A DNA stretch of 64,000 nt from contig NZ_LR027853.1 of the NCBI RefSeq assembly GCF_900607235.1, forward strand, positions 255,428 through 319,427. The letters run 5' to 3'. A program made the translations under genes and the position numbers. This document shows, one piece after another, positions 16,666-21,542 of this stretch. Origin of the DNA: Olivibacter jilunii (GTDB taxonomy: Bacteria; Bacteroidota; Bacteroidia; Sphingobacteriales; Sphingobacteriaceae). The notes beneath the pieces were generated by a model, which ran no database searches, had not been told where the DNA came from, and saw nothing but the letters and a program-made list of their open reading frames with translations. Within the stretch, counting starts at the first letter, position 1; each line of letters opens with the position of its first letter.

Positions 16666-17481
16666 ATGATGACAAATAAAACGATTATTATAACCGGCGC
16701 CTCATCTGGTATTGGACTGGCTTTAGCGAGAGAAATGGCCAAACGAGGTGCTAACCTGGTGCTGGCTGCTCGAAAATATGTTGCCTTATGTCAGATTGCG
16801 CAAGATCTTGAGAAAGAATTTCATGTTCAGGTAGTTGCTATTCAATGCGATGTGGCTAATGAGGAGTCTTGTAAACAACTCGTCGCGCAAGCCTTATTAA
16901 CCTTTAAAAAAATAGATGTCCTGATCAATAATGCCGGATTGAGCATGAGGGCTTTGTTCAAGGACCTGGATTTATCCGTGTTACATAATCTAATGAATGT
17001 AAATTTCTGGGGTACGGTTTATTGTACGAAATATGCATTGCCTGCATTGCTAGAATCTAAAGGTTCAGTTGTAGCAGTCTCTTCAATAGCCGGTTATCGG
17101 GGTTTACCGGGACGCACGGGTTACTCAGCTTCTAAATTTGCGATGAATGGCTTTATGGAGTCGTTACGCGTAGAAAATTTAAAAACCGGGTTGCACGTAA
17201 TGCTTGCTTGTCCGGGTTTTACAGCCTCCAACATTAGAAATACGGCGCTTAATAAAGATGGCGTGCAATTCGGAGAAACAAGTATGGAGGAAGAAAAGAT
17301 GATGACCGCCGAGGAAGTGGCTACACTTATTGCAAATGGAATTGCCGCAAGAAAACGCACCTTGATTATGACAACTCAAGGAAAGCTTGCTGTATGGATG
17401 AATAAATTTTTCCCTGCTTGGGTGGATAAAAAAGTGTTTACTCTTTTTGCAAAAGAAAAGAATCCTCTAATCAAAGCTTAA
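16666..17481 (+). CDS. Short-chain dehydrogenase/reductase
   Basis: Cytoplasmic NAD(P)-dependent oxidoreductase of 271 residues; substrate not inferable. Visible: cofactor motif TGASSGIGLALAREM at the start, structural NNAGLS, catalytic Ser in VSSIAG, and YSASK at about residue 153. The C-terminal extension (IMTTQGKLAVWMNKFFPAWVDK) resembles classical SDRs annotated as DltE- or YqjQ-like. Start could be either of two adjacent ATGs. It precedes the trp leader but lies upstream of that promoter. Confidence 0.87.
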   Translation: MMTNKTIIITGASSGIGLALAREMAKRGANLVLAARKYVALCQIAQDLEKEFHVQVVAIQCDVANEESCKQLVAQALLTFKKIDVLINNAGLSMRALFKDLDLSVLHNLMNVNFWGTVYCTKYALPALLESKGSVVAVSSIAGYRGLPGRTGYSASKFAMNGFMESLRVENLKTGLHVMLACPGFTASNIRNTALNKDGVQFGETSMEEEKMMTAEEVATLIANGIAARKRTLIMTTQGKLAVWMNKFFPAWVDKKVFTLFAKEKNPLIKA

Positions 17482-17499: not shown

Positions 17500-17531
17500 T
17501 TTGCAAATATTAATCTAATTATTCATATTTG
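17500..17531 (+). promoter_or_regulatory. Promoter of the trp leader and trpDFBA
   Basis: TTTG (17500-17503), 20 bases, CATATTTG (17524-17531): one mismatch from the Bacteroidota consensus with ideal spacing. It ends 11 bases before the leader-peptide ATG. The -33 box lies inside a perfect 16-bp palindrome AATATTTGCAAATATT (17496-17511), which might be an operator. Confidence 0.65.
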
Positions 17532-17542
17532 CTTTAGAAAGT

Positions 17543-17590
17543 ATGAATACAACATTTGCTCATATAAATTGGTGGTGGCACGAGGGATAA
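17543..17590 (+). CDS. trpL: trp operon leader peptide
   Basis: A 15-codon frame, MNTTFAHINWWWHEG, with three consecutive Trp codons at 17570-17578 and a stop at 17588-17590. It starts about five bases after the predicted transcription start and is followed by alternative hairpins and a terminator before trpD. It is too short for an ordinary ORF scan. Three adjacent Trp codons in front of trp genes are what attenuation requires: a ribosome stalled there senses charged tRNA-Trp. The symbol is by analogy with other bacteria. Confidence 0.85.
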   Translation: MNTTFAHINWWWHEG

Positions 17591-17665
17591 TCGTGGCAAA
17601 ACCATTTTGTAGTGCATCTAAATAAGAAATAACAAAAAGGCTTGCCATATCGCAAGCCTTTTTTT
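17579..17665 (+). promoter_or_regulatory. trp transcription attenuator
   Basis: Three exclusive pairings are visible. Region 1, CACGA (17579-17583, right behind the Trp codons), pairs with TCGTG (17591-17595). Region 2, TGGCAA (17594-17599), can instead pair with TTGCCA (17642-17647), which lies in the 5' arm of the terminator. The terminator is AGGCTTGC / GCAAGCCT plus A/T pairs and a T-run. A ribosome stalled at the Trp codons would cover region 1 and free region 2 to block the terminator, allowing trpDFBA transcription when Trp is scarce. Confidence 0.8.
17634..17665 (+). terminator. Attenuator terminator before trpD
   Basis: Perfect 8-bp stem AGGCTTGC / GCAAGCCT with loop CATATC, extended by A/T pairs and followed by T7. 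Confidence 0.9.
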
Positions 17666-17773
17666 ATGGCTTAAAGCAAACTGATTTGGATTAGTTTCTT
17701 CACAAATAAAATTGCGCGAAACTATCTTTTAAAAAGGTAAAAATGGCGTGCAGTATATAAAAATTAACATTAG

Positions 17774-18778
17774 ATGAAAAGAATATTAACACATTTGTTT
17801 GAAAGTAAAACTTTTACAAAGGAAGAGGCTTACGAAATACTAACCAATATTACTTCCGGTAAATACAATTCATCACAAATGGCGGCATTTATGACGGCAT
17901 ATTGTATGCGCAATATTACGGTAGAGGAATTAGCCGGTTTCCGGGATGCCATGCTTGACTTATGTCTAAAAATAGATTTTAAAGACTATAAACTGATTGA
18001 CTTATGCGGAACGGGGGGAGATGGAAAAAACACTTTTAATATTTCAACGCTTGCTTCCTTCGTAGTGGCCGGAGCTGGGTATCAGGTTGCAAAACACGGC
18101 AACTATGGAGTATCTTCGGGATGCGGCTCCTCTAATGTCATGGAATTTTTGGGCTATCGTTTTACAAATGAACCTGGCGAAATTTATCGAAGCTTGGACG
18201 AAGCCGGCATTTGCTTTTTACATGCCCCCTTATTTCATCCGGCAATGAAAACTGTGGCTCCTATACGAAAAGAGCTAGGCGTGAAGACCTTTTTTAACAT
18301 GCTTGGGCCGCTAGTTAATCCAGCAGAACCAATTTACCAATCGGTTGGTGTATTTAGCTTGGAATTAGCTAGGCTTTACGGGTATCTTTATCAGAAGACC
18401 AACAAGAGATATTCAATACTGCACGCTTTTGATGGTTACGACGAGATATCATTGACAGGCGATTTTAAGGTGATTGGAAACAAGGGAGAACAGTATGTGT
18501 CTTTGGAATCTATTGGATTTGATAAGGTACGAGCCAATGAAATAAATGGAGGAGAAACGATTGAAGAGGCCGCACGTATTTTTATGGATGTTTTAAATGG
18601 TACGGCATCCTTTGCGCAAAAAAATGTAGTGTTGTGCAATGCGGCTATAGCGATACAAACCATTTGTCCAAGTAAGTCTTTTGCCGATTGCTATTATGAA
18701 GCAGAGGCATCTTTATTATCAAAAAAGGCGCTCCTTAGCTTTAATCGATTGGTTAAAAAAGAAAAAGCAATTTATTGA
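17774..18778 (+). CDS. trpD: Anthranilate phosphoribosyltransferase
   Basis: Second committed step of Trp synthesis: anthranilate plus PRPP to phosphoribosyl-anthranilate. 334 residues. Visible: N-terminal helical domain (MKRILTHLFESKTFTKEEAYEI), PRPP loop DLCGTGGDGKNTFNIS at about residue 75, VAKHGNYGVSSGCGSSNVME, and FNMLGPLVNPAEP. The start lies about 108 bases after the attenuator terminator. One base separates its TGA from the ATG of trpF, so translational coupling is likely. Confidence 0.95.
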   Translation: MKRILTHLFESKTFTKEEAYEILTNITSGKYNSSQMAAFMTAYCMRNITVEELAGFRDAMLDLCLKIDFKDYKLIDLCGTGGDGKNTFNISTLASFVVAGAGYQVAKHGNYGVSSGCGSSNVMEFLGYRFTNEPGEIYRSLDEAGICFLHAPLFHPAMKTVAPIRKELGVKTFFNMLGPLVNPAEPIYQSVGVFSLELARLYGYLYQKTNKRYSILHAFDGYDEISLTGDFKVIGNKGEQYVSLESIGFDKVRANEINGGETIEEAARIFMDVLNGTASFAQKNVVLCNAAIAIQTICPSKSFADCYYEAEASLLSKKALLSFNRLVKKEKAIY

Positions 18779-18779
18779 T

Positions 18780-19403
18780 ATGCAAGCTAAGCTGAAAATT
18801 TGCGGCATGAAATATCCTGCAAACATAGAGGAAGTCCTTTTGTTAAAGCCGGATTACCTAGGTTTTATATTTTATGAGCAATCGAAACGTTATATTGCTG
18901 ATTTATCACCTGAATTTTTGAGCGCTTTATCATCGGTCAAAAAGGTAGGTGTATTTGTCAACGATTCGACCGATCGGATAAGGGCAGCAAAAAATAGTTA
19001 CAACTTGCAGGCTATACAGTTACATGGAAATGAAAACCCTGCTTTTGTGAAGACCTTAAAAGATTTAAACGTGCCGATTATTAAGGCCTTCGGTATTTCG
19101 CAGGATTTTGATTGGCAACAATTGGACGCATACGAAGCTTTAGTTGATTTTTTTCTTTTCGACACGAAAAGCCAGGGATACGGAGGAACAGGACAACTTT
19201 TCGACTGGTCGCTAATCGAACAATATAAACTGGAAAAACCTTTCTTTTTGAGTGGTGGTCTTGGTCCGGAAAACATCGCGAGCGCCTTATCTTTAAACGA
19301 TCCGCGCCTTTATGCCCTTGATGTAAATTCAAAATTTGAAGAAAGTCCGGGACTCAAGGATTTAACGCTACTGCGATCAATATTCTCTAGTAGCCGCTGT
19401 TAA
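18780..19403 (+). CDS. trpF: Phosphoribosylanthranilate isomerase
   Basis: Third step of Trp synthesis, an Amadori rearrangement in a TIM barrel. 207 residues. The frame is open from 18681, but the ATG at 18780, one base after the trpD stop, starts the family motif KLKICGMKYPANI with the catalytic Cys. Other motifs: YLGFIFYEQSKRYI, VGVFVND, QLHGNE, the Asp in FLFDTKSQGYGGTG, and FLSGGLGPENI with ALDVNSKFEESPGLKD. It is followed by a 145-base gap holding the element shared with serC, unusual within an operon. Confidence 0.94.
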   Translation: MQAKLKICGMKYPANIEEVLLLKPDYLGFIFYEQSKRYIADLSPEFLSALSSVKKVGVFVNDSTDRIRAAKNSYNLQAIQLHGNENPAFVKTLKDLNVPIIKAFGISQDFDWQQLDAYEALVDFFLFDTKSQGYGGTGQLFDWSLIEQYKLEKPFFLSGGLGPENIASALSLNDPRLYALDVNSKFEESPGLKDLTLLRSIFSSSRC

Positions 19404-19548: not shown

Positions 19549-20733
19549 ATGAGTAGTTATCAGGTCAATGAAAAAGGATATTATGGGGATTTCGGGGGGG
19601 CGTACATCCCGGAAATGATGTTCCCGAATATAGAGGAGCTACGGCTTCGTTATTTGGAAATTATGAACGAAGATGGCTTCAAAAAAGAATTCGAGCAGCT
19701 GCTGAAAGATTACGTTGGAAGACCTTCTCCGCTTTATTTGGCTCAGCGGCTTTCTGAAAAATACAGTGCCAATATCTTTTTGAAGAGAGAAGATTTGAAC
19801 CATACAGGTGCTCATAAAGTAAATAATACCATCGGACAGATTTTGCTGGCAAAGCGTTTAGGAAAGAAACGCATCATCGCTGAAACCGGAGCGGGTCAGC
19901 ATGGTGTTGCCACCGCCACGGTATGTGCACTGATGGGAATTGAGTGCGTGGTTTATATGGGCGAAATAGATATCAATAGGCAAGCGCCTAATGTAGCCCG
20001 CATGAAAATGATGGGAGCAGAAGTCCGTCCCGCAACGTCAGGAAGTAAAACCTTGAAGGACGCTACAAATGAAGCTATGCGCGATTGGATTAATAACCCG
20101 GTAGACACGCACTATATCATTGGCTCTGTAGTAGGCCCACATCCTTATCCTGATATGGTTGCAAGATTTCAAGCGGTCATCTCTGCCGAAACTCGTAGCC
20201 AACTCTTAGAAAAAACCGGTCGGGAAACACCTGATTATGCGATTGCCTGTGTAGGTGGAGGAAGTAATGCAATGGGAATGTTCTACCATTTTTTAGACGA
20301 TGAGCAGGTACAGTTGATTGCCGCAGAGGCTGCCGGGAAAGGGGTAAATAGCGGCCACTCGGCAGCAACTTCCGTGCTTGGAAAAGAAGGAGTTTTACAC
20401 GGTAGTCGAACTATTTTGATGCAGACTAGTGATGGGCAAGTGATTGAACCTTACTCTATTTCCGCTGGCTTAGACTATCCGGGTATTGGTCCTCAGCATG
20501 CATTTTTACATAAAATCGGCCGTGCAAAATATGTGAGCATAACGGATGATGAAGCGATGCAAGCAGGACTTTTATTAACCAGATTAGAAGGGATTATTCC
20601 AGCCATTGAAAGTGCTCATGCTTTGGCACAGTTGGAAAAAATGTCATTTAAACCTTCGGATAATGTAGTTGTATGCCTGTCGGGTCGCGGAGATAAAGAT
20701 TTGGACAATTATATGAAATATTTCAATTTTTAG
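19549..20733 (+). CDS. trpB: Tryptophan synthase beta chain
   Basis: PLP enzyme joining indole and L-serine to make Trp, in a complex with TrpA. 394 residues. Visible: [22 protein letters not shown] at the N-terminus, the PLP lysine in [15 protein letters not shown] (about residue 89), [18 protein letters not shown], the phosphate-binding [15 protein letters not shown] and SGRGDKDL at the C-terminus. It is 145 bases behind trpF and 23 bases before trpA. Serine is its co-substrate, which bears on the leader element shared with serC. Confidence 0.97.
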
Positions 20734-20756: not shown

Positions 20757-21542
20757 ATGAACAGAATAAAACAATTATTTGATAACAAGGGCGATAAAAA
20801 ATTGCTTTCTATTTATTATACTGCCGGTTATCCGCATATAGATAGTACCATTGCGTTAGCTAAAATATTGGAAGCATCGGGTGTTGATTTTTTAGAGATA
20901 GGTTTCCCGTATTCTGATCCGGTGGCTGATGGTCCCGTAATTCAGCACAGTTCGGAAGAGGCTTTAAAGAATGGTATGTCACTTGATCTTTTGTTCAACC
21001 AATTAAAAGAGTTAAGGAAAGAGGTACAGATTCCGGTATTGTTAATGGGATATGTAAATCCAATGTTGCAGTATGGAGTGGAGAGGTTTTGTCGGGCTTG
21101 CGCGGAAGCGGGTGTCGATGGGGTTATTGTTCCCGATTTACCAATGTATGAATACGAAGAGCTTTATCAAGAAGTTTTTAAGAAATATAATATTAGTAAT
21201 ATCTTCTTGATTACACCACAAACCTCGGAAGAGCGTATTAGAAAAATCGATGAATTAAGCACGGGCTTCATCTACATGGTATCTTCATATGCCACTACAG
21301 GTAAAAATCTTGTAGTATCTGAACAAACGGCGCATTATTTTCAACGCGTCGACGCCTTGAATCTTCGCAATCCCTTGGTTGTTGGCTTTGGCATTACTGA
21401 TCAGGCAAGTTTTGATCATGCATTACAGTATGCAGACGCGGCCATCGTGGGCAGTGCTTTTGTTCGTTTGCTCAGTCAAAAGGATTATTTAGAACAGATT
21501 CCTTCATTTATAGGAGGTATAAAGGGAAATGTTGCTGTATAG
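20757..21542 (+). CDS. trpA: Tryptophan synthase alpha chain
   Basis: Cleaves indole-3-glycerol phosphate to indole and glyceraldehyde 3-phosphate and channels indole to TrpB. TIM barrel of 261 residues. Visible: YYTAGYPHIDSTIAL, catalytic Glu in FLEIGFPYSDPVADGPVIQ with the following catalytic Asp, VLLMGYVNPMLQYG, VDGVIVPDLP, VSSYATTGK and FGITDQASFDHAL. Last gene of the cluster. trpC, which makes its substrate, is not in the window. Confidence 0.96.
   Translation: MNRIKQLFDNKGDKKLLSIYYTAGYPHIDSTIALAKILEASGVDFLEIGFPYSDPVADGPVIQHSSEEALKNGMSLDLLFNQLKELRKEVQIPVLLMGYVNPMLQYGVERFCRACAEAGVDGVIVPDLPMYEYEELYQEVFKKYNISNIFLITPQTSEERIRKIDELSTGFIYMVSSYATTGKNLVVSEQTAHYFQRVDALNLRNPLVVGFGITDQASFDHALQYADAAIVGSAFVRLLSQKDYLEQIPSFIGGIKGNVAV

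Follow-up and report, generated by a model that had tools for sequence, protein, structure and literature searches.

Putative ribosome-stalling attenuators before both halves of a split tryptophan pathway in Sphingobacteriaceae

The stretch of DNA analysed here (64 kb, hereafter the window) belongs to a 6.7-Mb genome of the family Sphingobacteriaceae and carries four tryptophan biosynthesis genes on the plus strand: trpD (17774-18778; PF00591 and PF02885), trpF (18780-19403; PF00697), trpB (19549-20733; PF00291), and trpA (20757-21542; PF00290). Judged by trpD, it is closest among named relatives to Olivibacter sp. XZL3 (92% identity). The named relatives share the gene order trpD, trpF, trpB, trpA, and the adjoining trpB is mostly 77-94% identical to that of the window; no match to trpE, trpG, or trpC was found in their trpD stretch. 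In the genome under study, trpE-trpG-trpC sit on a different contig from trpDFBA. The split of the trp genes is a trait of Sphingobacteriaceae, because other families of the class mostly keep the two parts together, with trpE within a few kb of trpD in most genomes where both were located. Upstream of trpD lies a short leader ORF and, before it, a short-chain dehydrogenase (SDR) gene (16666-17481, same strand), which ends 62 nt before the leader ORF. An SDR gene, often preceded by recR, was found directly upstream of the trpD leader in many relatives.

The leader ORF (17543-17590, plus strand) encodes a peptide of 15 codons, MNTTFAHINWWWHEG, with the codon sequence ATG AAT ACA ACA TTT GCT CAT ATA AAT TGG TGG TGG CAC GAG GGA TAA; homologous ORFs are present in 111 distinct trpD-side leaders. 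Codons 10-12 (17570-17578) are three Trp codons, the putative sensor, and the position of this run is common to most of the relatives. Region 1, TGGCACGA (17576-17583), pairs with TCGTGGCA in a fold of -8.2 kcal/mol. The original prediction had placed region 1 at CACGA; this motif is present at 17579-17583, but the region is longer, includes the last Trp codon, and is extended by an outer stem. Region 2, TCGTGGCAA (17591-17599), a partner in either the 1:2 or the 2:3 helix, was recognised by constrained folds and comparison of leaders. Region 3, TTGCCAT (17642-17648; core TTGCCA, 17642-17647), is located in the 5' arm and loop of the terminator and is indicated by constrained folds and by type-specific pairing. 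The terminator has 12 pairs (17634-17663; -16.7 kcal/mol) between the 5' arm AAAAAGGCTTGC (17634-17645) and the 3' arm GCAAGCCTTTTT (17652-17663), which together with the T tail reaching 17666 forms region 4. The leader peptide, its three Trp codons, and the T-tailed terminator are all where they had been predicted. About 110 bases separate the attenuator from trpD.

This attenuator is not a chance find. Its ORF is the only one of 7-30 aa with WWW on both strands of the window, the RNA fold of 17543-17668 (-41.2 kcal/mol, z -5.7) was equalled by none of 200 shuffles, and the Rfam family RF01692 matches the site. In principle, the hairpin could merely terminate transcription between the SDR gene and trpD, with the short ORF preceding it by chance, as would fit the SDR gene ending so close upstream on the same strand and the frequency of terminator-like sites per se, which equals that in shuffles. 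We regard this as very improbable: besides the uniqueness of the WWW ORF, the arrangement is repeated in about 75 of 80 named relatives, also in those without an upstream SDR gene, and the helices covary as described below.

The match to RF01692 (Bacteroid-trp) covers positions 17523-17646 (model positions 1-131); its score of 49.6 bits exceeds the cut-off of 49 by a narrow margin, and the gene context, trpDFBA downstream in a Bacteroidota host, agrees with the family. Bacteroid-trp was listed as a likely cis-regulatory RNA of Bacteroidetes (Weinberg et al., 2010, Table 1; PMC2864571). It is named before the trp operon of Flavobacterium psychrophilum and compared with E. coli attenuation in a later paper (PMC6414381), and another paper reports leader-peptide attenuators inferred in this species by RNA-seq (PMC9723704). 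The match and the published family together make the window element a member of a known family; as to how widely such a system is described in the phylum, a question raised by the original prediction, it has been catalogued as RF01692 since 2010 and is poorly detected by Rfam. The cut-off was passed in 3 of 100 related genomes, though nearly every trpD of the family Sphingobacteriaceae has a leader. The model is too narrow, and many true relatives score below the cut-off. It shares with the window element the phylum and the gene class and spans the promoter box, leader ORF, Trp codons, and terminator 5' arm, inside which it ends; its fold encloses the Trp codons in a single long hairpin and lacks the 2:3 antiterminator, which is worked out here for the window leader. 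F. psychrophilum shares the family and the proposed mechanism and offers clues from transcript data within the phylum, whereas it belongs to a different bacterial order, and dual attenuators are not described in the accessible text of either paper (PMC6414381, PMC9723704).

The E. coli type of leader, RF00513 (Trp_leader), gave no covariance-model match in the window even at E up to 1. The E. coli trp attenuator has in common with the window leader the Trp codons in region 1, the mutually exclusive 1:2, 2:3, and 3:4 helices, and a ribosome at the stop codon covering region 2. In contrast, it has no sequence relation to the window leader and contains two Trp codons instead of three, and the window leader lacks a ribosome binding site, has a predicted 5' UTR of 7 nt, and would control trpDFBA only.

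Comparison was based on 157 distinct leaders, all with a Trp run and a terminator: 111 from the trpD side, 37 from the trpE side, and 9 located before trpE in other families. WWW was found in 100 of 111 trpD-side and 24 of 37 trpE-side leaders, shares that are conditional on a detection procedure demanding WW or W.W; some relatives carry only WW, W.W, or one Trp. The run begins at codon 10 in 90 of 111 and 26 of 37 leaders, respectively. The leader peptide varies freely outside the Trp run, as expected of a codon sensor. In nearly all leaders, region 2 begins 12-20 nt past the last Trp codon, immediately beyond the reach of a ribosome halted at that codon; in most of them, region 2 would be covered by a ribosome standing on the stop codon. 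Order and spacing, which the original prediction had considered suitable for ribosome-stalling attenuation, are borne out by these distances and by the constrained folds. One genus has decayed leaders, a natural loss of the sensor: on the trpD side (L218, L220) promoter box and terminator are present without a Trp run, and on the trpE side (L166, L173, L174) one Trp codon is left.

Other phyla regulate trp by a T-box, a TRAP-type protein, or a riboswitch. Direct sensing of this kind, in which the leader peptide has no part, is hardly credible for the window despite that general precedent. A T-box or another trp riboregulator was not found in the Rfam scan, and neither the conserved Trp run at a fixed codon nor the ribosome-footprint spacing would be needed for it.

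The three helices of the attenuator were tested for pairing and covariation. Plain MAFFT moves region 1 or 2 by one base in some rows, so that pair counts within a type underrate the helices, and alignment-free duplex tests were therefore used as well. In these tests the 2:3 duplex was better than in shuffles (mean z -2.2 on the trpD side and -2.1 on the trpE side). Region 2 of the trpD side paired with trpD-side arms at -12.0 kcal/mol vs. -7.4 kcal/mol with trpE-side arms, and that of the trpE side with its own arms at -13.2 kcal/mol vs. -8.5 kcal/mol with trpD-side arms. Within each type, a leader's own 2:3 pairs exceeded permuted ones with p values of 0.003 (trpD side) and 0.0002 (trpE side), which are optimistic, related sequences being non-independent. 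Examples of co-variation are TGGCAA/TTGCCA in the window, GCATCGGG/CCCGATGT in L150, TGCGACAAG/CTTGTCGCA in L177, and GAACAGCA/TGCTGTTC in L014. For helix 1:2 in 31 trpD-side leaders, the covariation score was 0.246 compared to 0.154 in shuffles (0 of 500 as high) and exceeded all slid versions. For helix 2:3 in 36 trpE-side leaders, 15 double changes were counted compared to 8.4 in shuffles (1 of 500); on four measures 1-12 of 500 shuffles did as well, and a fifth measure was not significant. Covariation of helix 2:3 within the trpD-side leaders alone was not significant (72.6% paired, and equalled on most measures by 102-192 of 500 shuffles), a consequence of the near-invariant terminator arm in this set, and the single-sequence score of the window 2:3 helix had p 0.09-0.12. 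Terminator pairs (3:4) covary across leaders. Mutually exclusive 1:2, 2:3, and 3:4 helices thus appear to be conserved, 2:3 mainly by the comparison across types; close relatives, in which a Trp run and alternative stems were looked for, have both, with compensatory changes.

Constrained folds of the window leader were calculated for a transcript extending through region 3 only, with varied ribosome position. Without a ribosome, 1:2 and the outer stem formed (-23.9 kcal/mol). When the ribosome was placed on a Trp codon, whichever of the three it was, GTGGCAA (17593-17599) paired with TTGCCAT (17642-17648) at -14.7 kcal/mol. When it was placed on the stop codon, neither 1:2 nor 2:3 formed, and region 3 remained available to the terminator. 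The alternative pairing of region 2 with region 1 or with TTGCCA of region 3, as originally proposed, is reproduced by these folds. At full length, with region 4 present, the terminator was formed in every equilibrium fold, so the switch has to operate kinetically, which is also the accepted view for E. coli.

For the start of the leader transcript, the sequence CATATTTG (17524-17531) was assigned as the -7 promoter box, with TTTG (17500-17503), 20 nt before it, as a tentative -33 element. In F. psychrophilum, the TAnnTTTG box spans -12 to -5 (PMC9723704); applied to the window, this placement puts the predicted start at 17536 and gives a 5' UTR of 7 nt. The original estimate was about five bases; this published box position lengthens it slightly, and the near-leaderless start itself is supported by comparison of 146 leaders with ordinary genes. 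Exact CATATTTG occurs 5-19 nt before ATG in 86 of 109 trpD-side leaders. The median distance from box to AUG is 10 on the trpD side (predicted 5' UTR of ~6 nt) and 6 on the trpE side (~2 nt; 35 of 37 between 4 and 8), whereas in a small sample of 39 ordinary genes that have a strict box in this genome the median was 27, and 4 of them had a distance of 9 or less. The values for ordinary genes agree with the published shares of short 5' UTRs in two members of the phylum, 3.7% and 5.5%. A Shine-Dalgarno-like motif was seen in almost none of the leaders. Because promoter boxes sit so close to the leader AUGs compared to ordinary genes, the leader ORFs are probably translated from leaderless or near-leaderless messages, for which trpL of S. 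meliloti is a precedent (PMC7298713). Three other searches were discarded: a scan for sigma-70 type promoters, which is not applicable to Bacteroidota; bare TGGTGGTGG runs, not enriched in the genome (96 vs. 92 in the reversed control); and a looser pattern, TTTG..ATG..TGGTGG, with 187 uninformative matches.

Taken together, a transcription attenuator very probably controls trpDFBA by ribosome stalling at the Trp codons, a mechanism strongly supported by comparison of the leaders. RNA polymerase would start near 17536, and a ribosome would load on the nearly leaderless AUG at 17543. With ample Trp-tRNA, it would reach the stop codon at 17588 and cover region 2; region 3 would be free for region 4, and the 3:4 terminator would end transcription at about 17666. 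With scarce Trp-tRNA, the ribosome would halt at 17570-17578 and cover region 1, so that 2:3 could pair, block the terminator, and allow read-through into trpDFBA. If no ribosome loads, 1:2 and the terminator would both form.

The same genome contains a second leader with WWW and a terminator upstream of trpE, on the minus strand (L104 8700-8834; G000:C1, ~401700-401833). Its peptide is MTIDTTIRNWWWPVKEQRREHI, the candidate 1:2 hairpin is GGCCTGTT/AACAGcGCC, region 2 is GCGCCGGG, and the terminator is ACCCGACG-catata-CGTCGGGT followed by a T tail. By this divergent attenuator, trpEGC is probably controlled in the same way as trpDFBA. Automatic detection gave a Trp leader and terminator on both trp halves for at least 36 of the 44 family genomes in which both genes were located; in several of the remaining 8, a leader with a GTG start or a single Trp is visible by eye. 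The trpE-side leaders L148, L155, and L225 apparently begin with GTG instead of ATG. An alignment of trpE-side leaders also revealed a conserved AATCAACC(A/T)AAAACC between region 2 and the terminator, which fits none of the three attenuator helices.

The two attenuators differ in sequence. RF01692 found only the window copy in its own genome at E up to 10, leaving the trpE-side leader unmatched, and it matched neither L104 nor any of 20 trpE-side loci; no Rfam family recognises this type. A covariance model of the trpE-side leader returned, in the same genome, itself (94.8 bits) and then the window leader at 30.1 bits, near noise, with all remaining matches lacking a Trp ORF. As a guide to spread across the class the model was rejected, as matches below ~50 bits were mostly sites without a Trp ORF, and no distribution is claimed. 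The trpE-side leader is plausibly an undescribed variant: no description of this type or of paired attenuators was found in the open-access papers searched, which does not prove that it is unpublished.

In S. meliloti, which likewise has a split trp pathway and, before trpE(G), a trpL ORF at or next to the transcript 5' end, the attenuator RNA acts in trans on trpDC mRNA (PMC7298713). In addition to attenuation as proposed, the terminated RNA or the leader peptide could act in trans on the trp operon elsewhere in the genome, as rnTrpL does in Sinorhizobium meliloti; a split pathway with a leaderless leader is the precedent, and the window leader has a near-leaderless start. We consider this addition improbable, as cis attenuators on both halves make a trans link unneeded and the peptide is unconserved outside the Trp run.

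Attenuation in cis on each half is thus the preferred reading. It seems fairly likely that Sphingobacteriaceae have a split trp regulon in which trpEGC and trpDFBA each carry a ribosome-stalling attenuator, of two sequence types, the trpE-side one representing an undescribed RNA family, with both leaders leaderless or almost so in a phylum without Shine-Dalgarno initiation. The window family is already known; new are the occurrence of one attenuator on each half of the split pathway and the trpE-side type, found in no RNA family. Covariation now backs a mechanism that was little more than catalogued for Bacteroidota and most members of which the Rfam model misses. With 5' UTRs this short and no Shine-Dalgarno site, one may ask how a ribosome loads on the leader quickly enough, and the arrangement of two attenuators is a natural test of the balance between half-pathways after an operon split.
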